Under the pieces are notes generated by a model that was not told where the DNA came from, ran no database searches, and was given only the letters and a program-made list of their open reading frames with translations. The position numbers and the translations under genes were made by a program. Shown in pieces: positions 7,251 to 64,000 of a DNA stretch of 64,000 nucleotides (within the stretch, counting starts at the first letter, position 1; each line of letters begins with the position of its first letter). Source of the DNA: Heterobilharzia americana (Eukaryota; Platyhelminthes; Trematoda; Strigeidida; Schistosomatidae); assembly GCA_944470555.2 (NCBI GenBank), contig OX104134.1:114942701-115006700 (forward strand). Reading direction: 5' to 3'.

Positions 7251-7290
7251 TGTGTGAAATTTCAAGTGAATTACTTTGTTTCTCTTGATA

Positions 7291-21938: not shown

Positions 21939-24116
21939 GTCCCTTGGGTTCCTAGTGGAACATAGGGCTTCAGTAGCACGCCTCCAGTGACCTCTGTTCT
22001 CTGAGATCTTTTGAACCTGGTCCCACGACAGCCCAGAAGCTCTCATTTCCTCCTCGCACGACCTCCTCCATGTCACCCTCGGACGTCCAACTCGTCGCTT
22101 CCCATCGGGGTTCCACTCGAGCAACTGGCCTGACGCGTGATGTCCTCAGTCGGCCTTCTCAGTGCATGGCCAATCCATCTCCACTTCTTCCTGAATATTT
22201 GTTGCGTGGTAGGTCCTTGGTTGGTTCGTTCCCAGAGTTCCTTGTTGCTTATTCTTTCTGGCAATTCATCTGAGCTTCAGTAGCGAGCGTAAGCAGTTGT
22301 TGATGAATGTCTGTAGTTTATTGGAAATGCCTTTCTTAACGCGCAAAGTCTCTGAACCATACAGAAGCACTGACTTGACGTTGGTGTTCAAAATCCACAT
22401 CTTGTTCCACATGCTGAGTGGAGTGCAGAAGATCTCCACACTGGTTTCAGGCTAATGAACCCCTGTCTTGCTTTTCCGATTCTGACTGGCTTTGACATCC
22501 TCATCTGTGCCTGTCCCGCCTGTAGTTGAAACAGTGCTTCCTAGATAGGTGAAGGAGGTTACTTCCTTCAAGTTTCTCCCGTTGACGGTGATTGAAGTTT
22601 GTTGTTGTTGGTGGTGGTGGTGGTGCGGTATCTTCATCACCTCTGTCTTCTCTATATTCACCTGAAGTCCCGTCTTCGCTGCCTCTTCTATCAACTTGTT
22701 AGTTTTTGCCTGCAGATCTTCAAGTTTGTGTGACATTAGGCACAAGTCATCGGCGAAATCCAAGTCTTCTAGGTTCTTTTCCGTCGTCCAGTGTATCCCC
22801 CTCTTCTCGCTGCCTACTGTTTGCTGCATGATCCAGTCCACCACAATAAGGAATATCATGGGGGAATAGTAGGCAACCTTGTTTCACTTCTGTCTTCACT
22901 TCAAAGGCATCACTGAGCTTCCCATTGTGAATTACTTGGCTGGCATGTGGCATCTTCATATAGTTGTTGAATGAGGCTGATAAAGGTTTGCGGTACTCCG
23001 TAGTATTGAAGCAGTTTCCAAATTACCTCTCGGTCGACGCTGTCAAAGGCCTTTTCAAGGTCGATGAAGTTGAGGCAGAGAGCTGATTGCCATTCTATGC
23101 TCTGTTCTATGATGATACGAAGCGTTGCAATATGGTCTGCACATGATTTGTACTTCCTGAAGCCTGCCTGTTCCGGTCGTAGTTTTGAATCCAGTGCGTC
23201 TTTAAGCCTCTCCAGGATGATGCGGCTTAATATTTTACTTGCTCTGGGTGGACAGGAGAGTGATTCCGAGCCAGTTCTTGCAAGCACTGAGGTCTCCCTT
23301 CTTCGGCAGTTTGACAAGGTAACCCTTCTTCCAATCACTAGCCAGGTACCTTCTCTTCCTTCCACACCTTCTGCAATAGTGGTGTGAGCATGTTTGCTGT
23401 TGTCTCTGCATCTGTTCTCAGTGCTTCTGGCGGTATCCCGTCTGGTCCTGTTGCTTTCCCGCATTTCAGTAGCTTTATGGCGTTCAGGACTTCCATTTTC
23501 GTTGGGGGATTTATGTTCACTTGTAATTCAGCGGCTGCAGGTGGTATTTCTGGACGAAGTGCAGGTGGTGGTCGATTCAAGAGCTTCCTGAAGTGGTCGG
23601 CCCATCGTTTCCTCTGTTTCTCTTCTTTTGTAATTAAATTTCCTTCTTCATCTTTTATTGGTTTCATCTGTGTTGGTCTCTTCCCTGATAGCAACCTGGT
23701 TATTTGATACAATGTCGTCAGGTCTCTATCTCTCCTACCAGCAGTCTGTTCTGCTTCACTTGCCAGTGTTTCGTAGAAGTGTCTTTTGTCTTTCCACGCA
23801 CTCTTCTTCACTTCTTTGTCCAGTGTTTTATACATTGTGCTCAGTTCCTCTTGTCGTTGAGCATCCTTGCACTGGTTTATCTTCTGCTTCACCATCCTCC
23901 TCTCCCTCCTCTATCAGCTTCCAGGTACCCGTCGAGATCCATTCCTTGTCTTCCACCTTCTTCCTTCCTAATACTGTTGTGCAGGTTTCTTTCCACATAG
24001 CTTTCAAAGACTTCCAGTGTTCTTCCACACAGGTTTCTTCAGGGATGTTCCTCGATATCTCCCATTTTGTCTTGATGGCTGGCTGCCTTGAAGATCTCCT
24101 TTGTAGTTTCATCCTT
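21936..24116 (-). mobile_element. Family A (RTE-type) retrotransposon, RT and C-terminus
   Basis: On the minus strand the order is as follows. First a linker (EISRNIPEETCVEEHWKSL near 24080). Then the RT start (KCGKATGPDGIPPEAL near 23460), the SRIILERLKDAL and RPEQAGFRKYKSC region, and FIDLEKAFDSVDREVIWKLL near 23050. Then the catalytic box FADDLCLMSHKLEDLQ near 22740, a His/Gln-rich slip (near 22620), FTYLGSTVSTTGG, and a C-terminal tail with RRVGRPRVTWRR. The FADD box and the tail suit the RTE clade (SR2-like). The frame is broken at three or more places. The 5' part runs into the assembly gap. The stop codon is the first TAA of the tail. Confidence 0.85.
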
Positions 24117-28390: not shown

Positions 28391-28530
28391 CTACAGAGGT
28401 GAAGTCGAACAAAAAGGACCAGGAAGAAAGGCCGAGACAAGGAAGTTTGTACGCTAATAGTTTACTGCACTTGTTGTTGGACGTTGAAGGTCATAGCTCA
28501 AAAATTGTCTGTGCGCGGGCATGTTTTGAT

Positions 28531-31500
28531 ATGATTTACGCTGTGTTCGTTTTTTGTACTTGTATCAAGTTTACTCATTCCTTTCAATCTAACGAAGGTC
28601 TTAAATGTGAAGATCTGTTACCTGGTCAGTATTTGTGTGACTCCCCAGCCATAGATGAACTGACTCAACAACCACGGAACTGCTCATCACTAAAAGCCCC
28701 AGGTATTGCATAAATTGCTTGTGATACGTACCCTTAAGTTGATTGTAAACCAGCTCCTGGGATTCTCTGTGACGGAAAGCTATTCAGTGGCTCTGAAATT
28801 GGTTTCCAGAAATTAGTAGATTGTCGTCGAGTGTAATTTCACAATTTTGCATAATATGTAAACCATAATGTAGCACTGGATATAAATTCGACTTGGCATT
28901 ACTGCTGTCAGTATTTGGTGGCGTATTTGGATTGGATCGATTCTACCTGGGGTACCCAGCTCTAGGTTAGTGTTACTATATCCATGCCTGTATACAATAG
29001 TATAGGTTGCCTGAAGCTCTTCACTTTCGGTGGGTTCGGACTCTGGTACCTCTGTGATATCCTACTAATTTCACTTGAAGTGAGTGTTAATACTTCATTT
29101 TGCTTCGATTGGACAATTGTTTCGTGGGTGTTAATTGACGACTTATTTCTTAAGCTACGAAGCTTTTGCACTGCGTTGTAAATGGTATTTAAGTCGAGGC
29201 AGTGCTTGTTTGTATTACAGCGGATAATTCTTGACATTCGTAGTATGTAAAGGATATCAAGTCCACTTGAAAAAAGCAGGGAAAATTACGTCCTGGTATA
29301 TGGTGTATTTGAAAAGAAATAGGAATAATGGTTTTGAAGCACAGTCGTCTCATCAACCACTCGAAACGTTTGGAAGTCCTAATATGGGATGAAACTGTAG
29401 ACTACTCACATATTGTGTACCGTGAGGAATAAATTAAAATGGAATTTTCAGGAACATGGTGGGCTTTTTTATATAGCAAGTGGCCATATTCATGGTCTTA
29501 TACATTATGGAGATAATCAATTTTGCTCAAAATATTACCAAAGCTAAATAACCACCGTGTAAACATTCGCTATATATATATATACATATATAACAAAGTC
29601 GCATGTGGTCTGGTCATTAAGTCACAGACTTCTGAAATTTTAGGCGCAGTCTATGTTCAAGTTATGACTAACGGTAGAACACCTTGTGTTCACCAGCTTT
29701 ATGAAGTTTTCTCTTCAATAAACATTAACTGATAAGGATCACGTGTTTTATGGAACCGGATACATTGTAACCTATAATCAAAACATGTTCAACATTGTGA
29801 TCCATTTATTTAGACTTGTAGAAAAACTAAAAAGTTAGAGTAAATACTCGTAAGAAGTGACTTTATTCCAGGTCCTTAGTTTATCTATACTGCTTGTATC
29901 CACTTGTTTAACTTTCTCTTCCTCAGCTCTTTGTCATGTTAATTCTCTGTATTATTCTAGTTGATATTTGTATTGTTTTGATTTGCCTAAAACATTAGGT
30001 GCTAAGTAAAACACCGTCGAAATTCCTAGAGATTTCATCTTACGATTGTGCTTTGATTGTTCAACCGCAACTAAAGTAACCTCTGAATAAACTTTCATGG
30101 TACTACTGCTCTCCATGTCTGGTGAAATATGACCACTGGGTAAGGACCTTAGGTGGTACGTAACTCCTATTATCTTTATCGGTGTGTGGAGCTGCGGGTT
30201 ATTCGTCTAAGCGGTCGACTTTTAGTAGGTCGGTGGTTTGAATCCCGCTCTCCATAACTGGGACTCAGGCCGTGTTCATAAAGCCAATTAGAACTTAAAG
30301 CTGTTAGATTTGCATTTTTCATCGTCACGTAAAACTAGCTTGATATACGACTTTCCGGACATATACTAATAAACTGTTTAGGTTTTGTCGGCATCTAATG
30401 CTATTTTTAGGGTCAGTAAATTTTCCTCACTTTCTCCATCTGGTGAGCATTTAACAATGCATCTTCACGGTTGTAGCAAGAGACTTCAGTGATCACATCT
30501 ACCACATACCTGATAGGCACCACTGCTCACCCAAGACATCTCATCGGATAGCCAACCATCGGCTCTGACACGATCTGACATACATTGGTGCCATGTTTTA
30601 GTCTGGCCACCTCGGGCCTTTTTCCAGCCTGGACCCACCTCAGCCAACATTGTGTGACGAGGCAATCGATGACTAGGCATACGTAGTACGTGTCCCAACC
30701 ATCTCAGTCGATGAAGGTTCACAATCTCGTCGACTGACTTACCTCTTCTCCCCAAAACTCTACACCTAACTTCTGCATTACTTACATGGTGACACCACGG
30801 AATACGTCCTATACTACGAAGGCAACGGTGGTCAAATACCTGTAACCTTCTCATGTCTTCCACTTTCAATGGCCATGTTTCACAGCCATACAGTAGAACA
30901 GAGCGGACTGCTGTGCAGTACACGCGACCCTTAATAGACAAACGAATATCACGGCGGCGCCATAGGTGGCGCAAATTGGCAAAAGCCAATCGAGCCTTTT
31001 GTATCCGTGCAGAAATCTCATCGGCAACTCACCCACCAGGGTTGATCCTACTTCCCAGATAAGTGAAGTGGTCAACACACTCAACCACTTCACTCTCTAT
31101 TGTTAGCCGCGGTGGAGCACCGCTGAAGACCAGTCCTGGAGCAAAAATCTGCATTTGGGTGGTGAAAATCGCATCCCAAACATTCTCAAATTGACACTCA
31201 AAGTGTTCAGAAGACTCTGAATCTTCTCAGCATCTTCACCTAACAGGACTATATCATCTGCATATTCTAAATCTAAAGAAAATTCACCTGTGATTGGGTC
31301 AACGTCTGTGTAATTAGGTGACGAGAGGGAAACCTCCATAAGAATATCTATGATAAAATTAAATAAGAATGGGGATAGTGGGCATCCTTGACGGACACCA
31401 CTTGATGAGTAAAGCTGTTCCGGTCGTAGATTTGAATCCAGCGCATCCTTTAGTCTCTCCAGGATGATGCGGCTTGATATCTTGCTTGCTTGTGGTGGGC

Positions 31501-34500
31501 AGGAGTGGAGCATGATTACGCGCCAGTTCTTACAATGACTTATATCTCCCTTCTTCGGGAGTTTGACAAGGTAGCGCTTCTCCCAATCTCAGGTACCTTT
31601 CCTTCCTTCCATACCTTCTACAATAGTGGTGTGAGCATGTCCACTGCTGTTGTCTGTGTCTGTTTTCAGTGCTTCTGGCGAGATTCCATCTGGTCCTGTT
31701 GCTTTCCAGGATTTCAGCAAGTTTATGGCATTCAGACCTTCACTTCTGCTTTTGTCGGAGGGCTTGTGTTCACTGTTTATTCTTTGGCTGAGCAGCTGGT
31801 GGTATATCCGGACGAGTTGGAGATGGTAGCGGTGGTGGTGGTGGTGGTGGTGGTGGTCGATTTAAGAGATGTTCGAAGTTGTCAGCCCATCGTTTCCCTT
31901 GTTTCTCCTCTCTCGTAACTAACTACCTTTCCTTCACTATCTTTCATTGGTTTCATCTGCGTTGATCTCTTCCCTCTCAGATATTAACCTGGTTATTTGA
32001 TACAATGTTGTCAGGTCTCTGTCGCTCCTACCTGCAGCCTGTTCTGCTTCACTTGCAAGTATGACGTGGAAGTGTCTTGTGTCTTTCTGTGCACTCTTCT
32101 TCACTTCTTTGTCCAGTGTAGTGTTTTATACGTTGTTCTCAGTTCTTCTTTTCGTTGGTCATCCTTGCACTGCTCTGGTTCATCTTCTGCTTCACCATCT
32201 CCCTCTCCCTCTCCCTCTCCCTGCTCTATCAGCTTCCATGTGTCCGTCGAGATCCATTCCTTGTCTTTTTTCCCCTTTCTTCCTAATGCAGTTATGCAGG
32301 TTTCTTTCCTCATCCCTTCCAAAGAATTCCAGTGTTCTTCCACGCCCGATCCTTCAGGGATGTTGCTCAGTGTCTCCCATTTTGTCCTGATGGCTGGCTG
32401 ACATGAAGATGTCCTTTGTAGTTTCCTCCTTTGGTCCAGTTTCTGTTCTGGGTGGTTGTTCAACTTGAACTGTCGTCTATCACCAACTTCTTTCGGGGTT
32501 TTCAACTTGATTTGGAAGGTAGGTTCCTTGCACTAGATAGTGAAGTGAGTGGTGTGAACCTACATCTACTCCCTTTCTTGATGTGATCATGTGTCAAGTA
32601 GGCTGGCCGCGTCTCCACTTTCTTCACATTGAGATGAAGTCGATCTGATGTTTAGTGTAGTGTGTCCTGGTGTCTGGTGAAATCAAATCCATGCCACTGT
32701 CTTGTGAATATCCTTGTGTTTGTACACAGTGCCTGACTGCAATCACCAAATCGTTGAATGCTCAGAATTCTGCAAACAATTCTCCATTCTCATTCATCGT
32801 TTCACTGAGCGCTTTTTGACCTATGCACAGTTCTCTTCCTGTGTTGTCTGCTCCCAGTTTGGCATTCATGTCATGCATTAAAATGAATTTAGATGTCACC
32901 AACTGGATTCTTGTCTAGTAGTGACTGCATTTGTCTGTAGAACTCCTCCTTCTTCTCTTGATCTGCATTATTTGTGGGTGTGTAGCGTAATGTAGCGTAG
33001 CGTGGGATTGTGTGATTGTGACTTTCCTTAATTTTGAGTTGAACCTTGCTGTTATGATCCTGCATGAGGAGATTGGTTCCCACTGCACGGGAGGGAACCC
33101 TTGATGCTTTAGTGGTCATCATGATAGCCACTCCAAAACAGAGTTTGCTCGTGGTTGTTCTCTGGGTGACAATATCTGTGTAGATTATTGACTCTCCATT
33201 TGACAGTCTGGAGAGTCCACTTGCATTCCACCTGCTTTCGCAGATTCCTAGCACTTCTATGCCATATCTTCTCATCTCGTTTGCAATCTGGGCAGCCTTG
33301 CTAGGTTCAAACATAGTGCGGACATTCCATGTCCCCATGCTTACTTTTGCTTTCATGAAGAGGAGAGAAGACACATCGGCCAATTGGCTTTCCGAAGGCT
33401 TTCACCACCCGGTGTCATTTCATCTCTCCGATTCCAGCGAGGAATAAGTTTGTTTTTATTTTTAAATTTTGTCTGTGCTTTGAAGTTTCTGTAGTGGTTG
33501 GATTAGTTTTCCGTGGTAGGGTTGCTAGCCCTATGCCCAACCTTCCCTTTTTATCCGGGCTTATGATCGGTTAGTAACTAGTGAACTGGTTAGCACATTT
33601 TAAGTCACATTACTTAGTTGAGTATGTATTTAGGTAATCCGAGAACGTGGTGGTTCGACCTGATCGTGTTTTTTGTTGTATCTGTATATTACCTAACGCG
33701 TCAAGAATTTCGATAACTGGGCTACCATTTTTGTAAATTATATTCAGTAGTGATGCCCAAGGACCACTTCAAAGTTTAATAATGCCCAGTCCTAGCATGT
33801 GGTCGAATTCACTGTTCGCCATTTTGAGCTTATCAGGGGCTAAACGGCGTGTTTTGGATGCCACAGGTGGACCTGTGGTTATGACATGATGCATAACATT
33901 GCTGGTTATGCACGAAAGAGTATGCTTTGGTTGTTGTAATTCTGGATATTTCCCTTATACTGCGTGATAGGACGCGTCGCCTGACTGTTTAGTTGTAACG
34001 ATGACTAAACTTGGACCTAAGTGGGTGATGCCATCAATAGATGACTTCGTGTTGTTATGTCAGTCGTTGACAATGAGCGTCTACGAGTAGGTCGTAGTGG
34101 TTCAGCGAATCTATGCCAACGATGGGGATAGAAACATCAGCTGGAAAGAAAATTCAGTGAATAGGTTTACGTAAACCTCAGTTGAGGTAGGCATACCGTC
34201 TCCCAAAGGTTGTGATCGCCTTGGCGTTAGCTGCTTCACGATTGAAGGATGGGTCATGATGACGCTCTTTTGTCGGCGCGGGAAGAACGCTCACCTCTGC
34301 GTCGGTGCCGACGAGATAGCGGACTTTCGTTTTTATACCGGTGACGTAAGGCTGTTTCAGCCGGCTACGGTTGCCGTGAATGCGTGCCGTTGTAACAGTT
34401 TCCCGAGTTTGTGTTGAAACTCCGTGACTTCTGGCACTTTCTGGCTTCGTCCCCGTAAGTATTGTGAAACCAGGACCATTTAGGGTTCTCCACCCTGTTA

Positions 34501-37500
34501 GGTTTAGTTTTCGGGCAACCACATGAGTTGCTGCGATGGGCTGAGACGCAGAAAATAGACAGCAATGTTTAAGTAAGGTATTCCGATTGAAACAAATAGC
34601 ATTTTATTTCTGATCCTGGCTTCAGCCTACATACAATTCATGGATTTAGAACAAACACTTTTGTCGAATAATAAGTCTTGTTGTAAATTATTGCCAGTTT
34701 TTCTAAAATCTTCTTAGTTGTCTGTAAATTGGTGTCTTATCCTTTTGTCATGTGTAATTGTTCTATTATCATTCGCCAGCTTACTGTTTGAATACATCCA
34801 GCCGAACTTCACGTATCTCTTGTTCGAACCTAACTGTTCTAATCTCATTGGTTCTACGTATATTTTAGGCTTTCAGCAGCTAGTGATGGTTCAAAATCTG
34901 ATTCTTTTTGAATTGGTGTAAAGAATTAAGGCAAAAAGTTGTTTGAAATTTCGAGTCTTTATGAAATGTTGAAAACAACTTGTTGAAACTAAGTCATAGC
35001 TACTAAGAGCCAAACTAACAGGTGTTCAGATAATGTGGATGTTGAAAGTGGTAGTCGACTTATCCTGTTTGTTATTACTGAACTCTCACTCAAGGCAAAA
35101 TTTTAGAACACTGTAGATAACAGACAGTTTACTCTTAGATTGAATTGAATTAGTTATAAGCATTCTGGACAAAATTGTTTATATTACTAATAACAAATCG
35201 CTCATTCATTTATTAGTGTACTACGTGGTGGAGCTGTGACTCACTGCTTTAGGAAGTTGATTTTCAACCGATGTCACTGGTTCGAGCCACGCTTCGCCAG
35301 GGGAGATGAATGCAGTGTAAAGTTCTAACAGTGAGAGGAAAGTAGAAAAGCAAGAGGAGATATAGCTAGCAACTACTTTAGGATTCAATTCCAACCAATG
35401 TTGTACCGGGACCGATCGCAGCTACCTTGACGTGGTGGTTGGGCTTGCATATCACAATGACCCGATGAGCTGTACTAGTGGAACGCTTGTTCCCTCGAAG
35501 TCCTATCATACCGGAAAGGTAAGTTGGATAGTGGTTAGACGAGCAGCAGTTGGTGTTGTAGTGTAAGTTACCGCATTAGGATGGGGGTCTGAGGGCGAAG
35601 TCGTAAAGCTGCTGGATAGGTTGTGACGGCAGTAAGGTGTTTCTGTTGGATGACCAGCGATGCCACGCTGATTCCGCCTTGCCTATGGATATTGAAGGGA
35701 GGAATAGAAAAGGCCAGCCCCAAAAATATCACTCTCACACCTTGAGGCATGCTGATAGCCTGCAACTGGAATCGTACTCGCATTCAAATGGCAAAACCAA
35801 ACGGCCGAAAGCAGATGTCCCATGGGCTCTGCAACCACACGAATCTTTTTCTCTTTCTGGTAACTCAAGTAGAAATAGCCATCAACAGTCTGGACAGCGG
35901 AGAAGTGTCAACCGCCCACACGCTTCCAGCAGTATTCAAGACTCGATTAGGCATAACCTATCCACCCCAACTCTGTTTCCTCCTTTGCCTCCACCTCAGA
36001 AGAGTAATATTAAACCTCCTACACTACCCTTAACCTTTCACTCTGCAACGATTACCAACGATCAAAGCCTTGTACTTAGTCTCCTGAAACCTGGAAATCA
36101 ATTTCATCTTGTGCCTTCCAAATTACAAACTCTGCTGAATCCGGCAGCAAGTACTGCTCACCAGAACTCTGGAATCTCAAGCAATGGATGTATAGTGCTT
36201 GTATATAAGACATATATACAGGATCCGAGTGTGGTTACTATGTTCACCTCACCTGGCCATAGTAGTGAATCTTCGAAATTCACCTTACGAGAATCTGGAG
36301 ACCGAATGGCTAGCTCTCGTGAACTCACTGGTGTAAGCATAGCATTGAGTTGTAGAGCAGAAGTTGCGCTTATCAACTGGATACCAGTCGATAGCGGTCC
36401 ATGTGCTATTCGACTGTAAGAACTAGGAAGGGTCATGAGACTAAAGCGATGTGTATTCGTAGTATCCACCTATACACCCAGCGAGTGCAGTTCAGATGAT
36501 GCAAATGATGAATTATATGAGAACGTGTCAAGCTCGCTACAGAAAGCAAAACCTTCAGAGGTAGTCATAATGGGCTGTGGCTATAACGTTCAAGTAAGGA
36601 AGCTGAGCAGAATCAATTGGAAAGACATCTTGCGGGTATTTTCAGAATCCCTTGCTAACAAAAAGACGGAGATGATCATGTGTTACAGTTTTGTTCCGAT
36701 AATCACTTTTTTCTGACCAGTACTTACTTTAGATATCAGAAAATATGGTCTCACACGCATCCGCTGATTTCAAACCAACGATGGATACAGGTAGATCACA
36801 CTGCTATAAGCCATCGTTGGAGAGGACCGGTGGAGGATTGCCGATCTCTATAGAGTACCAGTTTGGACTCCGATCATACGCTATTACAGGTGTGTGTGCG
36901 TCTGCTTCTCACTGGTAGCAAAAGACAGTGGGAGTGAAGCCTGTCTGTTCTCCACTGGAAAAAGAGAAAGTCAAGTACATACTCAGAGAGAAGATAGGCG
37001 AGCATTTATCTGAACGTGATAACAGTATTCATCCTGAGGAAACCTGTTGCTGCGTTATATTAAGTCTGCTGTAGAAACAGCGGTAAAGACAGTTAGGTAG
37101 CAACCTACTCCCGAAGATTAGCAAACGTCATTGGATTTCCGCGACATCATCCGAACTGATTGATGCGAGAAGACTGATTCTGACTTGCTCACACTTCGAT
37201 GGAGAGCGAAAGCAACGTGAACGTAAATTGAGCAAGAGTCTTCGCGTCGACCGCGAGCAGTAGTGAAAATGAGAGGGATGGAGAAGACATCATAGTTAGG
37301 TAACATCTGGTAACCATTTAGGCTTATTAAAAATACCGACAAGAAGACGATGGTTAGTGAAACCATCACGGAAAACGATATAATCCTGATAGCCTTCCAC
37401 GACAGGTGGTCAGAAAGTTTGGCGAAACACTTTAAAGTACCGGTCAGTGGGCTCGCATCAATGCTTCAGTTGCCTATAGCCTGAATGGGACGTGGATATC

Positions 37501-40500
37501 GGTCGCCTAAATATCGTTGAAGTTAAGAAAGCTGTATGGAACCTGGAACGATGCATAGCAGAAGGGTCTGACAGACTGCCACGTGAAGTTTACATGGATA
37601 TCGGTAGGATATGGTTGATTAGATTAATGGAGGTACTATGTGGTGTATGGGAATCAGAGGTAGTGTCGTCAGACTGATCTACTTCACTGATCATCCCAGT
37701 CTATAAGAAGGGGAGGGATCTTCTTGTGAAAACTGAAATGGAATTAATCTGACTAATATTGTGCCCATTATCCTGTGGTCCATGGTTATCCAACGCTTAA
37801 GTAGAGGCCGAAAACTGAAAATTCGAGGAAGCCAGGCAGGCTTCAGACCTGGACAACGGTGCACCGTTCATATTTTTATCCTATGGCAGGTTCTAGAACA
37901 CAGGTATACGTGCCGGCATGTGACTCAGTCGACTGCAAGGTGTTGTCGCAGTGTCTGACTGTGAAGAGAATACCAAGGAACAATGTAGCTCTAATCCAAG
38001 ACCTTTACTCGAACTCACGCGGCCGTGTAAGGATTCATGGAGAGTTGTCGTGTGAATTGACGACAACTAATGGTGTCCGTCAGGCATGTCTGCTGTCACC
38101 CACTATTCCTGTTTAACTTCGTTATAGACGTACTAATGGACATCACCTTAGGTATTTCTGACTTCACAGGGATTGATCTACTACATGGATGTCGTCTGGT
38201 TGACTTAGAGTATTCAGACAATATTGTTCTGCTAGGTGACGACGTTGATGTAATGCAGGGTCTTGTGAAGGCCGTGAGGCGAAATCTAAACCACGGAAGA
38301 CATCATCCATAAAGCGTTGGGGTATTTGTGTTGCATTCCGAAGACCAAAATGCATGGGCATGAATTCAAACAAGTAAATTGCCGATCCGTAACCTGGGTG
38401 TGTTGGATTTACATGTGTCAGAGACGAGTCAAATGTAAGCTGATGCTTCAGGACTGGTCTGCTGCAAGTACTCCCAGTTTGATAATAGTTAGTGAAGTGG
38501 TGGAATGTGTAGACCACTTCACTGATTTGAGGAGTTGCATCAGTCGGAATGGACTTATTGCTGACGAAATCTCAGCTCGTAAACAAAACACCCGTTTGAC
38601 ATTTGCCAACCTGCCTCACCTGTGGCGCCGACTAACGAGATATACGACTATCGATTCAAGGACGAATATATTGGGGTGCAGTCCGTTCTGTCCTGTTGTA
38701 CGTCTGTGAGACACGGGCGTTGGAAGTAGAAGACATGAAGTGGTTACATGGTTTTGATCACACATGTCTTCGTAGCATTGCTTGCGTTTAGTGGAATCAC
38801 CGTATGAGCGATGTTGAGGTCAGGCGAATGGTACAAGGCAAGACAGGCAAGTCAATTGATGAGGTTGTGAAGCTTTGTCGACTGAGATGGCTTGGACATG
38901 TGCTGTGCATGCCTCGCCTATCTCGATGTGCCATGCTAGAGGAAGTTGGAAGACGTTCAATGTGGCCAGACCAAGATCTGGCACCAGTCGATGAAGCCTC
39001 TTACTGTTGGTGTGAGCAGTGTGGGGCAATGTGGACTGTCTGGTTGGTGTCTCCGAGATGAATGGAATGGAATCAGTGGTCGAGGACTCTTGTTGACATG
39101 GCTGAGAATCGGTCTCAGTGGTGCAGATGTATTCACTGTCCGACGTCATCTGAAGCTTGAATATTCGCACTAACCTTTATCTGCAAATTGTTTATTCTCT
39201 CACACAACTTTTTCTACTTCGATATCACTTTTTCTATCCACCTGTTCTTTGTGTACTGCTCTGAAGTGTGGCAGTTTGAAGCGATGCACCTGTATGCGAG
39301 GTTTTATGTTGATTTTTTCAGTCAGTCAGTCTTATGTCCTCTTGAAAATTGTCAGGTGTTCTAAGATTCGGAGAGCTTGTTGCAGGTTTCCATTCACGAT
39401 GGGACTATGTATTGGCTTACTGAAAATTCTTTGGTCAGTTCATCTGTCTTTTTAGATTGTTTGCTCATGGTTTTAGAGCGATGTTGTGAGCGGACTGTGC
39501 ATGTGTCCTTCTGATCGATACTTTTACTGACCACTAATTTCATGTGTTTGTAATTGAAATGATGGAAAAGATTTTTAGCTCAGGATGAGGATGATGGTGG
39601 TGGTTTGGTGTTCTCTAAGCTTTGATATTTTGTCATAAGCGTTTCATCACCAGTCTTTGTGACATCTTCAGGACTACCTTCCTAATGAGGTGAAGCAGAT
39701 TCGATTCCTATAAGAATGTTCAGATCGTGCTTTTATTGACCTTTGGTGTTGTCTAGTTGTAAGTTGGGGAGTGTTTGTAATTATCTATCATAACTGTCTT
39801 CTCTGTCACTTCATCCGGATAGTGGTCTGAGGGAATTTGGGTGCCAACAGAGTTGTGATTGGGATTGACACTTGCCGGCTGCCCACACCGTGGAAGTCTA
39901 GGTCTTCTTGAGGTACCTGAAAGAGAAAGGTTAGTGTGTGACAGCAGAGCCTAAGAGGCATCTGCTTGAGGCCGGTCATGTATAGCCTTTTCGAACCCAC
40001 GAAAATTCTCCTGTATTATGGAAGGTGTAATCGGACATACGTCTTGTAGTTTTGGATCACCACTGATGACTGATCAAAGCCACCATACTGCATAATTTCT
40101 TTGTTTAAGAAAACATGTTAAGGGTAAGGGTAACCTTTGTGGTATGGTAGGACTTCGAGGGTTCAAGCGTTTCATCAGCATTGCTGGTCAGGTCATTGTG
40201 TTATGCATGGCCGACCTCCACGTCAAATTAGCAGATATCGGTCAGGAGTTTCATCTGTCAATGATTATCATAACTCCACTAAAGTATGATTGCAAAACTA
40301 TCACTTATTTCTTTGCGCGTAGTCTTCCCAATTACGCATTTAAGTCACCTTCGAGATTTATTTGCATCTGAACATTTGGCTTTTAGCAGACTTCTGGACA
40401 ATTTTTGTAAAAATCCGAGTCGCAACCACTGGGTACTTGGGCATAGAATACGAAAAATTCTTGTTTGTCTTAATATTTCTTAGTTTTCATTTTAGCATTC

Positions 40501-41932
40501 AATCGAACATTACATAATGCAATACACACATGCCAGGTTAAATGCAGGCATGCGGGCACTTCCTTCTGCCCTTGAAAAGCTGTAGTGCTACTTGGTCCTG
40601 CCATTGTAATATCCTACGAATCGTATTTTGATACAGCGTTGGACTAGATACATGCTTGTAGCGGACTCTTTAAGTGTGTTTCTGTTAGTACCGTAGCCCA
40701 ATAAGTAAGCTCTTAGTGAAATAACAGCTTCGAAGATACTTTTCATCCCAGTACTTCAAGCTGCATGAAATAATCTGGGACGTAGTCAGTTTCCTGCCCA
40801 GCACTGTGGCATGATTCTCTGGGTGAAATTCGAAAAATGATATACGACTTATTGATCAAAAATCTACCAGATATAGAATCAGAACCGGCTGCGACCGTAC
40901 TGTAGTTTTCTTGTCTTCTAGACTAGTATAGGACTAGTGAACGCTCGAATGTTTCTGCTGTGATTACTTCTATGATCATTCTGTTAACATGCTTATCTTT
41001 TCCACTATATCTTCAGTTTCACACTATTTTGTCTGTCGCGTTTTTCGGTGTTCATGTTGTACTGAGTCAATAAAAACAGCTATAGTAGTTCACCTCTCCC
41101 TTCCTTTTTGAAAAGAAACGGCTAGGACTTTTTTGCTTGTCTATTTTTCCAAACAACAACAAGTATAAACTTATGTTTTTCTTCTGATTGGATCCGAATG
41201 CCTAGTACCACATGGCAAAATTGGAAATACTTATTGTAAACGATTCCACTACTGTTGCTTTCGTCTTGATGCCTCACATAACTTGTCTGTCTATCTATTC
41301 ACAGACAACTTATACCAAAAGTCCAATTAAAACTCAGCTGTTGGAACCATTTCATCTGTATGTCACTCCAGATAGGGACTAGTTTATATATATGATAAAC
41401 ATACGTTCGTTTGCTAACAATTTAGTGTCGACAGCAGTTTATTGACACAGTCACTAGACAAAACCACTTAATCGCTTTATACGTTGTAAGATTGTGGCTC
41501 ATTGGCTTGGATTTTCAGTTTTCAAGTAGTGGATCGCTGTTTTGAACAACAACAACCAAGTTTCATGATATCTCTCAAGCCGTTGGTGCAGCTCGCAGCC
41601 TAATGTACGAAACTGCATGTGGTTAGAATTTCCTATTTGAAGAATTCGAAACGTGTAACTTGCTACTTTAAATACATCAGAACCTTTAAAAAGCAAAATA
41701 TCCGGACAAAAATTACTTTACAATCAATGATTAGCTTACAAATACTGATGAACGTGATTGACAGATTTAACCATTGTCATAAACTACAGTTTACGTCAGC
41801 CCTAAACTAATTGGTTTTTAAATCTATTTTCAGACTGTTGGTCCTGCTGACGGCTCATCGTTTCTCCGGCCTTACTACGATCCTGCCCTGACTCTCTTGC
41901 GCCGGACTAACTACACGGTGTATTCTGGCTGA
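28531..41932 (+). CDS. TM2D1: TM2 domain-containing protein 1-like, five exons
   Basis: Exons are 28531-28702, 28739-28832, 28874-28965, 29006-29079 and 41834-41932, all with GT/AG borders; phases join to one 176-residue frame. The product starts with a signal peptide (MIYAVFVFCTCIKF). Next comes a cysteine-rich lumenal part with CEDLLPGQYLCDSPAID, TQQP and PAPGILCDG. Then two membrane helices separated by GLDRFYLGYPALG, the DRF signature of TM2 proteins, and after the second helix GFGLWYLCDILLISLE joined to TVGPADGSSF. GQYLC and FSGSEIGF fit TM2D1 better than TM2D2 or TM2D3. TM2D proteins are linked to Notch signalling (Drosophila almondex family). Introns 1-3 are 36, 41 and 40 nt; intron 4 is 12,754 nt and full of retroelements. 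The ATG at 28399 in the same frame is less likely because it would bury the signal peptide. The stop codon touches the next gene's ATG. Confidence 0.88.
30180..30265 (+). repeat. tRNA-like SINE head
   Basis: The segment tgtggagctgcgggttattc ... ggtggtttgaatcccgctc has an A-box-like start and a clear B-box (ggtttgaatcc). It belongs with the other tRNA-headed repeats of this window. Confidence 0.45.
30486..31410 (-). mobile_element. Family B part of an A/B chimeric retrotransposon
   Basis: The minus strand encodes SSGVRQGCPLSPFLFNF, the catalytic box YADDIVLLGEDAEKIQ (intact YADD), RFLLQDWSS, then MAFANLRHLWRRRDI, VYCTAVRSVLLYGCETW and LRWLGHVLRMPSH. It is a better-preserved stretch of family B, broken once near 31000-31100. 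Its 5' side joins family A in frame at 31405-31415. Confidence 0.85.
31411..33591 (-). mobile_element. Family A part (endonuclease and RT start) of chimera
   Basis: The minus strand starts at 33591 with the A 5' end, then encodes the endonuclease (GTWNVRTMFEPSKAAQ, EVLGICESRWNASG) from 33383 down. After linker regions it reaches ISSRIILERLKDAL and RPEQ at 31440. Repeat expansions interrupt it: a ggt run near 31826-31857 and ctccct units near 32198-32222. Two or more frameshifts are present. It matches 1-435 at its 5' end. Confidence 0.85.
33690..34565 (-). mobile_element. Gypsy element fragment: gag end, protease, RT start
   Basis: Minus-strand blocks run in gypsy order: a gag-end segment with SWFHNTYGDEARKC (near 34470), a protease-like active site reading GTDAEVSVLP (near 34290; family pattern DTGAEVS, so the catalytic Asp-Thr-Gly is scrambled), then GPPVASKTRRLAPDKLK and HMLGLGIIK (33870-33780), the start of the RT. 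It is inactive. It stops where family A begins. Together with 12591-14470 it covers most of one gypsy pol. Confidence 0.7.
34566..35220. other. Intron DNA without recognised feature
   Basis: AT-rich sequence between a gypsy fragment and a tRNA-like repeat; only short frames. Confidence 0.35.
35222..35300 (+). repeat. tRNA-like SINE head
   Basis: gtggtggagctgtgactcac ... cactggttcgagccacgc contains A- and B-box-like blocks (ggttcgagcc) and resembles 6085-6175. Confidence 0.45.
35377..38287 (+). mobile_element. Family B retrotransposon, leader to RT (longest copy)
   Basis: A leader (35377-35640) is followed by an open frame to 36419. This frame encodes a Ser/Pro-rich N-terminus and an endonuclease start with IQDPSVVTMFTSP and GVSIALSCRAEVALINWIPVD. 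The next frame continues the endonuclease (VFVVSTYTPSECSSDDA, 36462 on), and QRWIQVDHTAISHRWRG follows near 36770. Decayed RT blocks run from 37490 (NIVEVKKAVWNLE) through SQAGFRPGQRC (37830) to LFLFNFVIDVLMDI and a YSDN catalytic box near 38210. Frameshifts are frequent. At 38288 it is interrupted by a gypsy scrap and then resumes. Confidence 0.8.
38288..38430 (-). mobile_element. Gypsy RT scrap embedded in family B
   Basis: About 140 bases, minus strand, encode part of the gypsy RT (MHFGLRNATQIPQRFMDD) and are almost identical to 14330-14470. They replace roughly 30 bases expected in family B between the NNLRMF-like segment and KCKLMLQDWS. Confidence 0.75.
38430..39170 (+). mobile_element. 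Family B retrotransposon, ORF end (second copy)
   Basis: Same blocks as 14470-15205 (KLMLQDWSAAS, ISRNGLIADEISARKQN, VEVRRMVQGKTGKS, LCRLRWLGHVLCMP), differing at only a few bases. Here it follows the RT part of the same family in the right order. Confidence 0.8.
40141..40255 (-). mobile_element. Family B leader fragment (diverged)
   Basis: Order of blocks is as in 16170-16322 (ggacttcgagggttcaagcg, ggtcattgtg, ccacgtca, tatcggtc), but much more diverged after 40172. Confidence 0.55.
40256..41830. other. Intron DNA without recognised feature
   Basis: AT-rich, short frames only. A weak tRNA-like segment may lie near 41490-41540. Confidence 0.35.
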
Positions 41933-42237
41933 ATGTCTACAGCTGATTTACCTGGGACAGACAAAAATAAATCTAACTCCTTTCTGCGTCTGCGATATTT
42001 ATCTTTATTACAAAACCTTAGTGGTGGTTCTCCAGTTTTGATTTACTTAGCAGATTTGAAGGAGCCTCTCAGGGCCATTCTGGATATTTGGTGCCCTTCA
42101 GATATAGCCAACAGTTCAGATTTGCATTTAGAATCAGTTTTGTTTGTGTGAAAGACCTACACACTCCATTGGGTATTGTTCCCAAGGCCCGAATACGTGA
42201 GGCTGACGTAATAGCTATTCAAGCGTTCTTGAGCTGA
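41933..42237 (+). CDS. GEMIN7: GEMIN7-like SMN-complex subunit, probable frameshift
   Basis: The ATG follows the TM2D1 stop with no spacer. The first frame (41933-42151) holds FLRLRYLSLLQNLSGG, ILDIWCPSD and HLESVLFV; the second (from about 42148 to the stop at 42235-42237) holds VKDLHTPLGIVPKARIREAD and VIAIQAF. Together they follow GEMIN7: an LR.RYL.SLL helix, an Sm-like fold, and a strand with TP.G then R..D.I. GEMIN7 pairs with GEMIN6 in the SMN complex that loads Sm rings on snRNAs. The two frames are linked at gtttgtgtgaaag, where an extra tg (or one lost base) would explain the shift. Alternatively a 47-nt intron (42091-42137, gtgccc...atcag) keeps a single frame but removes residues that align with the fold. 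Length would be about 85-101 residues, against about 130 in mammals. The stop is 1 nt before the DcpS ATG. Confidence 0.65.
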
Positions 42238-42238
42238 A

Positions 42239-43412
42239 ATGTGTGATAGTTCATTTCGACTAGGTGATACTCCACCTGTTCCACCTAAGAAACGTGCCCG
42301 TCTAGATGCATCGACATTGAACTCTACTAATGGCTCAGCCGATTGTACCTCGTTCTACCCCGAAAATATGCATTTAGTTTCTGTGCTTCGGAATGACCCT
42401 AAGAGTAAGTGTTTAGTGCTCCATACACGTTTTGGCGACGACATAAAGGAAGCTATCGTAACACTTCAAAAGTCATCATTTCCTAGCGATGCTGAAACTT
42501 TAAAACGTTGTAAAGTAGTGAATAAAGTTCTTATTCCACATGCTGCACATGAAACTAAAGACCGCTGCAATGAACTAGATGAGAAAACGAAGATGACAAA
42601 TCCATCTCTTTTCCAGAATGGCAAGCAAAGTCAATTATGACCAATGATATCTATCATCGTTTTCTTGTAACAAATGGTTTGGAGTCCGTCAACGGTGTTG
42701 ACATGACGGTGATTTATCCAGCTGAATCACACCACTTTGCGAAGTTTTACTGCTTCTGGTCGCCGTATTATTCAAGAGACTCCAGAAATCTATAAAGATA
42801 TCATCGTTCCTTTCTTGTCCCAAAAGCCTAAAGATCTCACTTGGATCGACAATATAGTAACAGGAACTGCTGAGCAGGATCGTGTTCTTCACACTGATGT
42901 CGATGAACAGTTTGGTTTCACATTAGTACTAGATTACCGTGGGATGGAGCTCGTCTTCAAGAACTTCACTGCTTAGGTATTTCTCATGATCAGAAATTGA
43001 CATGTCTACGAGATCTACGCAGCTGTCATGTCCAATGCTAAAAAAGATTTTACAAATGGGGCGTAGTACACTTTTTGCCAAGTATTCTAAGCGAAATACT
43101 TCTGATGGCCAAGCGTCCCATGATGATTTCAAGGATGTTTTGTCAGAAGATCAAATCCTCGCGTATATACATTATCCTCCAACATTTTATAGACTTCATG
43201 TTCATTTTATGCACGTCGATTCTGGAGACAGCTATGGTACAATCGCAGGTCGAGCACATATATTAGAAGAAGTTATTCGTAATCTTGAGCAAAACGATTT
43301 GTATTATGCTGAACGTACAATCACAATCTTTCTACACGATCGTAGTCCCATGTTTGTCGCTGTTTGTGAAGACAGTTGCCAAAAGTCTACTGAAGATCCA
43401 ATTCCCAGTTAG
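42239..43412 (+). CDS. DCPS: Scavenger decapping enzyme DcpS, frame broken by indels
   Basis: Exon 1 is 42239-42506; an intron 42507-42616 (gttgta...ttccag) leads to exon 2, 42617-43412. DcpS hydrolyses the m7G cap dinucleotide left after 3'-5' mRNA decay. Visible blocks are an N-terminal basic motif PPVPPKKRARLD, then QWQAKSIMTNDIYHRF, MTVIYPAESHHFAKF, IIQETPEIYKDI, LTWIDNI, QFGFTLVLDYR, ELHCLGISHD, LTCLRDL, MLKKILQMGRSTLF, HYPPTFYRLHVHF (HIT motif) and GRAHILEEVIRNLE. The frame shifts at 42745-42748 (T run, one base too many), about 42938-42943 (one too few) and 43031-43033 (C run, one too few). None falls at a usable splice site. In the HIT motif the first of three His is Arg (codon 43191-43193); the catalytic middle His remains. 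It is either a decaying gene or a place with consensus errors. Confidence 0.8.
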
Positions 43413-60975: not shown

Positions 60976-61010
60976 ATTTATAAAACATATACATATATAA
61001 ATATAATTAC

Positions 61011-62593
61011 CGTCGTTTTAATCTGATTGACTTCATCTCGGCTACATTTGGTGGTAGAGAGGTAATGGTCTTTCAAATGAATATTCATTTCACTATCTAT
61101 TGGACTCATTGAATAATTTACTCGATTTGATTCATCACAACTTGTTTGACTAGTGTTTTGCCTGTCTTGAACACTTTTTGATTCGAGTAATTGTGGATTA
61201 CATTTAGAGGATGGAGAAAATAACGCTTTGGTGTAAACTGAATTTTCATGATCATGGAACATTTCAACTAATTTCCTTTTAGTTTCAGTAATACTAAGGT
61301 TAGTATTACAGTTGTTAATACTGATTCGTGAGTCATTGAAATCCTCATTAGGGTACATGTTTGAATCGATAATATTAAGGACGTCTGTTTGATTATGTTC
61401 TTTCTTATTCAACAATTCATTTTGTTTGACTGATGGATTGCATGGCCAACATATTTGTTCACTAGACCAACGTAATTCAAAGTCACTATTCAATTGTTCA
61501 TTGTTTTGATTCAATGGATTTAAATCTTTCCTATTTAATAATAAACCCTGATAATGGTGTTCAGGAGGGTTAAAGTTGTCATATGAAAGGTGTTGGTCCA
61601 TTTTCATTGGCGTAGAATGTAAACCATTTGATTGTAAATCTTTTTCTCTGTTGTAGTAAGTTGTGAAATCCATTCTATTATGTTCATGATGCTGAGTACT
61701 ATTACTCATGTTCATTGGGGTATTGTATGCTTCCGAAATAATTGGCTTATAAAGAGGAGAGGCAACAGTAGGATTTGAGTTTCGAACACATGGTAGTGTC
61801 TTATGCATCATAGTTTGATAAATTGAAGGCAACTGTTGACTAACCGAGATGTTGTTATCATTTCTAACTTGTTCTGGTGGAGTTGTAAAAGCGAAAGGTG
61901 AACAATCTAATTCTGTTGAATATGTTTTTTGAACAGGTATACATTCTGTAAGATGAGTTGATGTTGTCGAGTTAATTAGTACTGGTGATGTGGATAGTTT
62001 TAGACCAAAAGAATCTGACTGCGTATGGAACACGTTATCAAAGGAAACTGCAGCTGGAGTACCGGACCTATGTGCTTGTCCATTTGTCGTAGCAGTGTGA
62101 ATACTGAAAACACTGTCAGTTGAAGATGAGGATGATGGTGCTACTTCTTCTAGTTCTAAACTTCTGCATGGTATAGTATTTGTAGAAATATTATTCATGT
62201 TTAAGTTGGGGATAGCTGACATTTCATTCGGGATAGGATGGAGTTTTGAAATATTGTTTATACTGTCATAATTCATTCCTCGCGTGTTCACCGCATTCGG
62301 GATTAGAAATCGTGTCATTTCTTTAGTCAAGATATCATGATTCATATTTCCTAAATTAAATGTGCTGAATGGAGATGATGTCATCTTATGCAGAGATGCT
62401 TCGTGACTCATTTGGGTGTAATTATTAGAAGATGAAATGTTTGCTGCGACTGCTGCAGCTACAGCAGCTGCAGCTGCTGATGCACACTTTCTGCGAAAAC
62501 CCCTTGGTCTTCTTCTTGATGCCCCATCTTGAAACATAAATTCCGCAGCTGGGTCAATAGTCCAGTAATGACCTTTTCCAGGGCGACCCATGC
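61011..62593 (-). CDS. FOXF: FoxF-type forkhead transcription factor, large exon
   Basis: The minus strand opens after a splice acceptor (ttatttag at 62601-62594) and encodes the second half of a forkhead domain: [34 protein letters not shown]. The GHYWTIDP and [10 protein letters not shown] signatures are those of FoxF, which controls mesodermal and muscle development in other animals. A poly-alanine run ([15 protein letters not shown]) follows at once. About 450 residues of Asn/Ser/Thr/His-rich sequence come next with no known domain, apparently a disordered activation region. The first half of the domain (helices 1-3) should be on an exon beyond the right edge of the window. Downstream, a donor site acg|gtaatt at 61010 suggests a further exon, although the frame stays open to a stop at 60978. 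The exon is intact over 527 codons, so the gene looks functional. Confidence 0.85.
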
Positions 62594-62599
62594 CTAAAT

Positions 62600-63910
62600 A
62601 ATGTGCGTAGAATTCAGGTAATAAGTATACAAAGAATAAGGTGTATTTGCTGTTTAGATTAGGAAAATAATTATACCAAATACTAAAAGACATTCAGAAT
62701 TAGTGGTCTCAAAAATTTCTACGAAAGGATCAAATCCTTTCATCTGATGGGATTTATTCCACAAATTCATGTACGCCATAATGCCTAGAATGAAAATAAT
62801 TTATTCTCCTCAGAAGAAGCTACAATTTTAGCTTGTGTCAATTATCACAGCTTAGTGCATAAAAAAGAATTCGTTCAATGAAGGATTCTGTTTGGCCTAA
62901 AAAAGTAGTCTCAAGTCTTCATAAGTTTACTAGGGTTAGAAAGTAATAAAAATGTAGACTGGGTTGCAGTACGTTGACTACAAAATAAGATTTTAAATAT
63001 TCTCATGCAGGCTATGTAAATAAAAGTTTCCCAATAACTCTCCGGTCACCAGCTGAAGTTGCTTGGAGAACTTTTAAATTAATCATTAAGGCTGTTAACG
63101 TTCGTTTGTTCCCTAGTATCCTTCAGTAAGATACTTCAACTTATACTTCATAGTTTAGAAATAAACATTGTAGAAACAGTTAGAATATAATAAGTTATAC
63201 AGAATACGCTGGTGTGCCACAGCTGTCATTGTTAAATGTTTGAACGAAGTTTACCTACGGCTTTGCTTCATGTATGTTTTTTACTTATTAACAGTGTTCA
63301 GTAGCGTGTCTCTCTAACCTTATGAAGATTGATACCCTTTAAGTTATGCGGATCTACTCTGCTTATTGTTTCAGCCTAAAGCGCTACGAATAAGCTATTT
63401 GAGCCGCAGCTGACCTGTAAATAAGTGAATTCAGTTCACTAATCAGTCACTTGGAAGTAGCCAATATAAGGTTCCATTGTCCGGTAGACTTAATAGATTC
63501 CATTTAACAAGACTATGTTAGTCTTGTAAATGAAGTTGAAACAGTTTTTTTATGAGCATCAATGTGCAAAGAACACAAGCAAAACAAAGCTTTATGATGA
63601 GAATGTTCAACTTCCTTGCATGGTGATAAAGAATAGCACATTAGACAGAATTTAATCATGACTAAGGACTACATAAATTTAGTTTCGTTACAATGTAGTG
63701 GTAAATATGTACATAGTACAGTACCCTAAGATAACCAATTTCATTTCTTACTAAATCCCGTAAACCTAGTCTGGAAACTTGAAAATTATTTTGGCAGTGC
63801 AACAGAGTTCCGTTTAACTTGATAGCTTAAATAAGATAGTTTTAGGTCCAAAGTACAGAGATGAATCCACCACAAAAGAAGTAGAAATGTGCTGCTGACC
63901 GGTGCTACCA
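62600..63910. other. FoxF intron or upstream DNA, nothing recognised
   Basis: On the minus strand this lies in the intron between the forkhead exons. No exon with the first forkhead half was found. Confidence 0.5.
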
Positions 63911-63914
63911 CTGA

Positions 63915-64000
63915 ATTATTCGAAATACAGTGGGAACAACACCACATACTGGGAGGCAGGTACATCCGGCGGACGAGTCCAAAATAGGATGAAACGCGCG
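63915..64000 (+). mobile_element. Sm-alpha SINE hammerhead tail, cut by window edge
   Basis: ggtacatccggcggacgag, then tccaaaataggatgaaac and gcgcg follow the Sm-alpha hammerhead: stem I, core block one, stem II (gtcc/ggat), core block two gaaac, stem III. Core block one reads cggacga rather than ctgacga, so the invariant U4 is G. The cleavage site and the 3' stem I strand lie beyond the window. Confidence 0.7.

Follow-up and report, generated by a model that had tools for sequence, protein, structure and literature searches.

In Schistosoma mansoni, unrelated genes that lie on the same strand and less than 300 bp apart are found in polycistrons that are resolved by spliced-leader (SL) trans-splicing (PMC3254664, PMC5832876, PMC12582326, cited here and below from excerpts). 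Splitting polycistrons in this way, into mRNAs of one gene each, is counted as a main function of SL trans-splicing in parasitic flatworms (PMC12582326). Long introns can serve as outrons (PMC5832876), and acceptors used in both cis- and trans-splicing are common in flukes (PMC5832876, PMC12582326); nearly every species examined has its lowest level of cis-splicing at the operon-resolving sites (PMC12582326). Operons without intercistronic sequence are found among the SL1-type operons of Ciona and C. elegans, and in predicted Ciona operons the median intercistronic distance is 1 bp (PMC7986045, excerpt). Green algae provide a further comparison, in the form of bicistronic mRNAs that are translated by leaky scanning (PMC11892635).

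The locus described here lies in a window of 64,000 nucleotides from Heterobilharzia americana. Genes resembling TM2D1, Gemin7 and DcpS follow one another on its forward strand, and are separated by 0 and 1 nt. The arrangement falls well within the definition of a flatworm SL operon, whose genes share a strand and are no more than 300 bases apart (PMC12582326), and is like the schistosome polycistrons in its long upstream intron, in a leader that ends in ATG, and in an acceptor that may be shared between cis- and trans-splicing. It differs from them in that neither an acceptor nor a poly(A) site could fit between the genes, whereas the 45 S. mansoni gene pairs with UTR predictions have at least 5 bp between transcripts (PMC12582326). 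The absence of a spacer is shared with Ciona and C. elegans, but there the distance is measured between annotated genes, so that UTRs can remain, while here the coding regions themselves abut. The likeness to the green algae lies in the depletion of AUGs before the last ORF, in a weak upstream-ORF context beside a better one, and in the short spacing between ORFs; the differences are that there are three ORFs, in a trans-splicing animal, with a fair start context at the first, and that the case is known here from sequence alone. A published S. mansoni tricistron was considered as the same locus and rejected, its second gene (Smp_210160) being listed as a DnaJ homologue. Among the papers listed by a literature search on Gemin7, DcpS, TM2D1 and Schistosoma, none appears to deal with this cluster.

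Arrangement and identity of the three coding regions

TM2D1 has five exons. The first four (28531-28702, 28739-28832, 28874-28965 and 29006-29079) are intact and are separated by mini-introns of 36, 41 and 40 nt. The last intron is much longer, at 12,754 nt (29080-41833, GTGAGT...TTTTCAG), and is a candidate outron for SL trans-splicing. It ends at the acceptor tctattttcag/ACT at 41833, which opens the last coding exon of 32 codons and a TGA (41834-41932). The predicted protein is 98% identical to the H. americana protein P0043 over the full 176 aa, which confirms the last exon. P0043 contains a TM2 domain (Pfam TM2, 4.2e-14), and TM2D1 is complete here, with this domain.

The TM2D1 stop codon (TGA, 41930-41932) is followed directly by the Gemin7 ATG at 41933. 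The Gemin7 TGA (42235-42237) is followed by a single A (42238) and then by the ATG of DcpS at 42239, giving the stop-start motifs TGAATG and TGAAATG respectively. DcpS is a single exon and terminates at a TAG at 43410-43412. Each junction sits within an unbroken stretch, and the 0 and 1 nt spacings are therefore independent of the frame breaks described below; each is also supported by homology on either side. The alignment with the Gemin7 protein P0041 begins at residue 1 at 41933, and that with the DcpS protein P0003 at residue 1 at 42239. The DcpS model of Trichobilharzia szidati (P0001) begins two residues upstream of the latter start.

The 3' part of the Gemin7 coding region (41933-42237) is recognised by Pfam PF11095 (1e-7, 32.2 bits, cut-off 25), and the 5' part falls under the cut-off (0.067, 13.6 bits); the orthologues P0041 and P0042 score 39.3 and 44.9 bits on this profile. 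A tblastn search with P0041, from S. margrebowiei, gives a match across both parts (1.67e-29). The DcpS region (42239-43412) has matches to Pfam DcpS (3.6e-4, 21.8 bits, below the cut-off of 25, and 2e-6) and DcpS_C (1.5e-6), and to solved DcpS structures (1.4e-11 and 3e-7). One of these, 3bl7, aligns through ...LHVHF, in which HVHF is the DcpS histidine motif, and both the N- and C-terminal DcpS domains are present. When searched separately against solved structures, the Gemin7 3' piece gave no match and the DcpS N-terminal piece an unrelated weak match only.

An earlier, sequence-only reading of this DNA had proposed both junctions and all three gene identities, and these are borne out by homology. 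The shared transcript that it proposed would be the natural reading of such tight packing. It had also argued that the packing rules out poly(A) sites, which does not hold: AATAAA occurs at 41966-41971 within the Gemin7 coding region, 34 nt beyond the stop codon of TM2D1, as a possible TM2D1 poly(A) signal identified by sequence match only, and again at 42521 within DcpS.

Internal ATGs and the acceptor at 41833

In a test picked after the sequence had been seen, TM2D1 and Gemin7 together were found to contain 2 internal ATGs, whereas their dinucleotide frequencies would predict 14.0 (P about 1e-4). ATG is the most depleted of the 64 triplets in these two genes. The ratio of observed to expected, 0.14 (2/14.0), compares with algal medians of 0.49 and 0.48 (PMC11892635). 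DcpS shows no depletion (32 ATGs against 23.6 expected from dinucleotides). Among the control ORFs, HSP70 has 40 ATGs (49.8 expected from dinucleotides, 38.6 from base composition). Another ORF of the HSP70 family (L010) has 38 against 38.5, and a BIR ORF 23 against 20.7 (codon usage). When the amino acids are held fixed, 5.3 ATGs are expected in TM2D1 and Gemin7 by synonymous shuffle (P 0.04) and 7.1 by pooled codon usage (P 0.0065). Taken singly, TM2D1 has P 0.054 in the synonymous shuffle, while the Gemin7 parts, in which there is no depletion, have P of about 0.75 each. Internal Met is absent from the 273 residues of the two genes (P 0.0045, given its rate in the control ORFs). A point on the other side is that TM2D1 has few Met in other matches as well (core mean 1.6, over 106).

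No other ATG is present in any frame between the Gemin7 ATG and the DcpS start. A purine at -3 makes a stronger start context, and the base at this position is G at the DcpS ATG and at the TM2D1 ATG, and T at the Gemin7 ATG and at both stray ATGs in TM2D1. The depletion of AUGs upstream of DcpS resembles what is seen with leaky scanning on a mature polycistronic mRNA. The TM2D1 ATG itself, having G at -3, is not weak, and scanning past it would therefore be limited.

The genome contains seven SL-like places within 3 mismatches, compared with none for a control pattern. Four of the seven were viewed. One of them (L006) is a leader-RNA-like gene with a 36-nt leader ending in ATG, followed by a GTAAG donor, and another (L008) is similar. 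An Sm-like site can be made out by eye in L006; a pattern search for such a site found nothing, and Rfam named no family for the four loci. The sequence-only reading had suggested that the acceptor at 41833 could serve both the last cis-splice of TM2D1 and a leader splice giving a Gemin7 mRNA. The dual use is credible, given that such sharing is common in flukes and that leader-RNA-like genes are present in this genome, but the product would be different from that envisaged: the terminal ATG of a leader joined at 41833 is in frame with the TM2D1 tail and not with Gemin7, which would therefore remain the second ORF. Within Gemin7 there are AG sites with pyrimidine tracts of 10/15, for example at 42053 and 42101; none has a higher pyrimidine count than 41833, though five come within one.

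Frame breaks in Gemin7 and DcpS

Five frame breaks are present across Gemin7 and DcpS, which the sequence-only reading had overlooked. That reading took Gemin7 as one frame. In fact, frame 2 runs from 41933 to a stop at 42149-42151, and a break near 42134 moves the coding sequence into frame 1, which carries the C-terminus and the TGA at 42235. The DcpS sequence changes frame four times, near 42584, 42745, 42938 and 43030, and occupies three frames in all. Neither gene has an open single frame. All five are one-base shifts, within about 1.48 kb, and other than through them no in-frame stop was found in either gene.

The breaks may be real, in which case this lineage would have lost the function of Gemin7 and DcpS only recently, and the packing would be what is left of an operon that once worked. 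The density of shifts is in keeping with this, since the TCP1 genes, used as a baseline for base errors, have no frame break in 12.7 kb of matched DNA, which argues against local base errors as the cause. It also fits that no second copy of DcpS or Gemin7 was found in this genome among the best candidates scored, and that no Heterobilharzia protein is among the 40 DcpS and 2 Gemin7 matches listed, yet its TM2D1 was found (in this protein search, matches of very different length were not candidates). The conservation of the sequence points the other way. All 105 DcpS columns that do not vary among nine other flukes (with eight or more of the nine filled) are kept here, and 20 relative-rate tests gave no significant excess of unique changes, the window having changed significantly less in four of them. 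These conserved columns, together with the lack of another copy, make neutral pseudogene decay unlikely, and the absence of in-frame stops apart from the shifts likewise counts against real inactivation. Furthermore, among 51 HSP70 matches in this assembly, array copies carry one-base deletions flanked on both sides by 97-100% identity, so that artefact-like shifts do exist in conserved genes of this assembly. An HSP70-like fragment on C5 (profile 1-158) has two more frame changes. A retrocopy or spare copy was rejected as an explanation, DcpS and Gemin7 having been found at this locus only, again among the best candidates scored. On this evidence we consider real inactivation improbable, and local base errors likelier than neutral decay as the cause of the breaks.

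Possible expression of the cluster

We hypothesise, with confidence that falls somewhat short of even, that TM2D1, Gemin7 and DcpS form a trematode operon-like cluster, laid out as their positions and homology indicate, in which a 3' exon holds the end of TM2D1 together with the whole coding regions of Gemin7 and DcpS, and which would be read at least in part from a single mRNA. We infer that the whole of this exon is joined via one good acceptor, 41833. Cis-splicing there would give a mature three-ORF mRNA, and SL trans-splicing would give an mRNA for Gemin7 and DcpS that begins with a 33-codon ORF, consisting of the leader ATG and the TM2D1 tail. Leaky scanning is proposed as the main route to the downstream ORFs, because the stretch before DcpS is nearly AUG-free and the Gemin7 AUG has a weak context, and the frame breaks would most likely be local base errors in this assembly. 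The internal poly(A) signals and the broken downstream frames count against the hypothesis. A stronger version is that of an animal tricistronic mRNA that is mature, uncut and leaky-scanned, with selection against AUGs acting over 831 nt, and with leader addition at the last acceptor acting as a switch that would drop TM2D1 and favour the two RNA-metabolism genes. This we regard as doubtful.

An ordinary flatworm operon is also a possibility to be taken seriously, if not a likely one. The pre-mRNA would be cut into separate mRNAs overlapping at their ends. Gemin7 would receive its leader at 41833 and DcpS at an acceptor within Gemin7, and the poly(A) sites would lie within the next coding region. 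The two AATAAA signals, the AG sites at 42053 and 42101 and the leader-RNA-like genes would all fit, as would the insertion of leaders in coding regions and at cis acceptors in S. mansoni (PMC5832876, PMC12582326). However, 45/45 of the S. mansoni pairs noted above are at least 5 bp apart (median 99; PMC12582326), the pyrimidine counts single out no better acceptor within Gemin7, and 41833 would have to be a cis site as well, although resolving sites are the least cis-spliced. The depletion of AUGs would also be left unexplained.

The same depletion, which extends far upstream into TM2D1, is not predicted by termination-reinitiation, in which ribosomes ending the TM2D1 tail or Gemin7 would restart at the adjoining AUG, as at viral stop-start signals. 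The motifs at the two junctions and the lack of any AUG from the Gemin7 start to DcpS are what such a mechanism would use, and an ORF on the scale of 33 codons is short enough to permit resumed scanning, but a restart within 0-1 nt normally depends on special RNA signals, and we consider this very unlikely. In influenza B, stop-start reinitiation involves about 10% of ribosomes (PMC3035654, excerpt). Equally remote is a separate promoter in the 12.75-kb TM2D1 intron, giving an unlinked Gemin7-DcpS transcript. The length of the intron would allow it, and there is a precedent in one S. mansoni gene, for which RT-PCR suggests a promoter feeding an internal leader site (PMC5832876), but alone it explains neither the translation of DcpS one base past Gemin7 nor the AUG depletion in TM2D1.

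On the adjacency of these genes in other flatworms, a question raised by the sequence-only reading, the relatives are divided. TM2D1 and DcpS are adjacent in at least S. mekongi, in which one gene model (P0031) fuses TM2 with DcpS_C. Contigs of equal size are listed for TM2D1 and Gemin7 of S. margrebowiei, and for TM2D1 and DcpS of S. turkestanicum. A 2342-base contig (source 'lgn') is listed for both TM2D1 P0051 (165 aa) and DcpS P0009 (401 aa), for each of which the closest of the matches compared are Opisthorchis proteins; judging by the equal size, these entries are probably one spliced RNA contig, on which Gemin7 was not seen. TM2D1 and DcpS are listed on contigs of different length in Fasciola gigantica (115,338 and 259,920), Fasciolopsis (152,181 and 23,140) and Paragonimus westermani (3,830 and 26,990), which argues against a conserved gene order.

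If the operon-like cluster read by leaky scanning is correct, a conserved spacerless cluster with AUG-poor upstream genes would imply that some flatworm operons are translated as polycistrons, as has recently been shown in green algae (PMC11892635). The cluster would join an snRNP-assembly factor and a cap-scavenging enzyme in one unit, and offers a direct test of polycistron translation in a parasite group whose gene models are often chimeric.

Three abutting genes

The locus lies in the window at 114,942,701-115,006,700 of contig C8, in a genome of 665 Mb, and holds TM2D1, a Gemin7-like gene and a DcpS-like gene on the forward strand (28531-43412). TM2D1 is 98% identical to a Heterobilharzia americana protein, with all 176 residues covered. 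It has five exons, the last of which (41834-41932) is preceded by an intron of 12,754 nt. The Gemin7-like ATG follows the TM2D1 TGA with 0 nt between them, and the Gemin7 TGA (42235-42237) is followed by a single A and then by the DcpS-like ATG; the DcpS-like region ends at 43412. These boundaries mostly agree with those of relatives. Gemin7 of S. margrebowiei (P0041) and DcpS of S. turkestanicum both align from residue 1, and TM2D1 has a matching final residue in H. americana and S. intercalatum, the exception being a DcpS model of Trichobilharzia szidati that begins two residues earlier.

The homology of the Gemin7 frame, on which the sequence-only reading depended, is borne out. Its 3' piece matches Pfam at 1e-7 and its 5' piece at 0.067, and both match P0041 (tblastn, 1.67e-29), which itself has a Gemin7 Pfam match at 6.4e-10; the 3' piece found no match among solved structures. 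The DcpS-like region has Pfam matches in three of five pieces, one below the curated cut-off. Two of the three DcpS pieces tried matched solved DcpS structures, and the third had no relevant structural match.

Elsewhere in the window there are a 381-codon open frame that encodes a BIR (inhibitor of apoptosis) domain (7224-8366; Pfam 5.4e-11), a reverse-strand open frame of 571 codons that matches nothing in Pfam (60981-62693), and a Type I hammerhead ribozyme truncated by the window end (63964-64000; Rfam RF00163). Remnants of retroelements, carrying domains of reverse transcriptase, RNase H and integrase, lie at 13158-13814, 22913-23527 and, on the reverse strand within the 12.75-kb TM2D1 intron, 31106-31588.

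Breaks in the downstream frames

The three-gene packing proposed from the sequence stands at its junctions but not in its frames, which had been taken as single and open. In a frame-shift-aware alignment Gemin7 is interrupted once, near 42134, and DcpS four times, near 42584, 42745, 42938 and 43030, each time by a net shift of one base; the aligned pieces contain no stop codons.

We favour base errors as the cause. Read through, with X placed at the breaks, DcpS retains every one of the 105 columns that do not vary in nine other trematode proteins (columns with at least eight of the nine filled). None of 20 Tajima tests gives it a significant excess of unique changes, and 4 of the 20 give it significantly fewer. 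Neutral decay with five indels should leave many substitutions, which argues for errors rather than for real breaks that inactivate both genes, an explanation we consider improbable. The same assembly also carries one-base shifts in its tandem HSP70 arrays (C1:119232019-119272285, C1:119392690-119409711 and C4:61078965-61106145): nine of ten copies are broken, ten times in all and at three places, one of which is common to seven copies, and the amino-acid identity on both flanks is 97-100%. Two further breaks occur in an HSP70-like fragment on C5. The assembly therefore contains such shifts, though their density in Gemin7-DcpS is unusual. Base errors are, however, made less secure by TCP1, whose 38 matches show no one-base break across 12,702 nt, part of it introns aligned through (six close neighbour pairs each have at least 32 inserted nt). 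Inactivation would also fit the finding that no DcpS or Gemin7 named as Heterobilharzia is among the database matches, in a search that restricts matches by length. No second DcpS copy was found in the genome, all three matches being at this locus.

AUG depletion and possible leader addition

In the spliced sequence from the TM2D1 start to the DcpS start there are two further ATGs besides that of Gemin7, both out of frame within TM2D1. In a test devised post hoc, TM2D1 plus Gemin7 has 2 ATGs against 14.0 expected from dinucleotides (P about 1e-4), making ATG the most depleted of the 64 triplets. DcpS shows no depletion (32 observed, 23.6 expected), and the control ORFs have 40 against 49.8 from dinucleotides or 38.6 from base composition (HSP70) and 38 against 38.5 (L010, a second HSP70-family ORF). 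With amino acids fixed the expectation falls to 5.3 (P 0.04), or to 7.1 (P 0.0065) with pooled codon usage as well. Internal Met is absent from all 273 residues; were Met as frequent as in the control ORFs, this would have P 0.0045. Synonymous shuffles of the genes singly give P 0.054 for TM2D1 and about 0.75 for the two Gemin7 parts, so that the missing ATGs of Gemin7 rest on its amino acids. The aligned TM2D1 core is without Met in 10 of 14 flatworm models, several of them partial, the four others being P0045, P0047 and P0048, which have irregular ends, and one from a tapeworm; at least one core Met occurs in 104 of the 106 remaining matches listed (both counts from the best 120 of 252). The shortage resembles the AUG depletion ahead of the second ORF in green-algal bicistronic genes, for which reporter tests favour leaky scanning (PMC11892635).

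A two-codon ORF (ATG TTT TGA, 28521-28529), whose ATG is the only one within 200 nt upstream of TM2D1, stops a single base short of the TM2D1 ATG, a further stop-start junction.

Leader-RNA-like genes are present in the genome: seven places match the S. mansoni leader followed by GT with no more than 3 mismatches, and a reversed control pattern found none. Among four places viewed, L006 has a 36-nt leader ending in GCATG and followed by GTAAG, with an Sm-like site recognised by eye only, and L008 has a similar leader ending in GTATG. Rfam named no family at these loci. In the interval 41700-42240 the acceptor at 41833 has the highest pyrimidine count of any AG site (11/15), five others having 10/15, and an acceptor at 42289, inside DcpS, has 12/15. 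A leader joined at 41833 would read ATG ACT GTT GGT, the TM2D1 frame, ending just before the Gemin7 ATG. Separate poly(A) sites, which the sequence-only reading held to be incompatible with such packing, are possible inside the coding regions, since AATAAA occurs at 41966 and 42521. In S. mansoni, the 45 pairs analysed for which UTRs were predicted all have transcripts at least 5 bp apart, with a median of 99 (PMC12582326).

We give most weight to a terminal exon common to the TM2D1 tail, Gemin7 and DcpS, which leaky scanning would allow to be read, in part at least, as a polycistron; leader addition at 41833 would supply an alternative 5' end. The spacing, the homology, the AUG depletion and the leader-RNA-like genes are observed facts, to which this reading adds that splicing at 41833 would occur in both modes, cis and trans, and that a mature polycistron would exist and be translated. 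The weak points are that the TM2D1 start is itself in fair context, which counts against leaky scanning, that the AUG test is post hoc, and that the downstream frames are broken in the window.

Gene order in other flukes

The evidence on adjacency in other flatworms is mixed. In the S. mekongi model P0031 the C-terminal half of DcpS is fused to the part of TM2D1 from exons 1-4, a chimera of the sort reported among the gene models of many flatworm operons (PMC12582326). TM2D1 is on a contig equal in size to that of Gemin7 in S. margrebowiei (82,708,858) and to that of DcpS in S. turkestanicum (77,818,958), which indicates at most the same chromosome. One contig size, 2,342, is given in source lgn for both TM2D1 (P0051) and DcpS (P0009), which are each nearest to Opisthorchis proteins among the matches compared. 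If this is a single contig, TM2D1, including its last exon, and the whole of DcpS fit into 2.3 kb, and the contig would represent spliced RNA, as a gene with introns like those of the window could fit no other way. By contrast, the contigs of TM2D1 and DcpS differ in size in Fasciola gigantica, Fasciolopsis and Paragonimus westermani, which may reflect drafts or different assemblies. Trichobilharzia szidati has two DcpS proteins (P0001 and P0006), identical at 245 of 258 aligned residues and on contigs of unequal size, which suggests a duplication or a haplotype copy.

The cluster is a variant of flatworm operons, a known kind; a mature tricistronic mRNA, if found, would make it of much greater interest.
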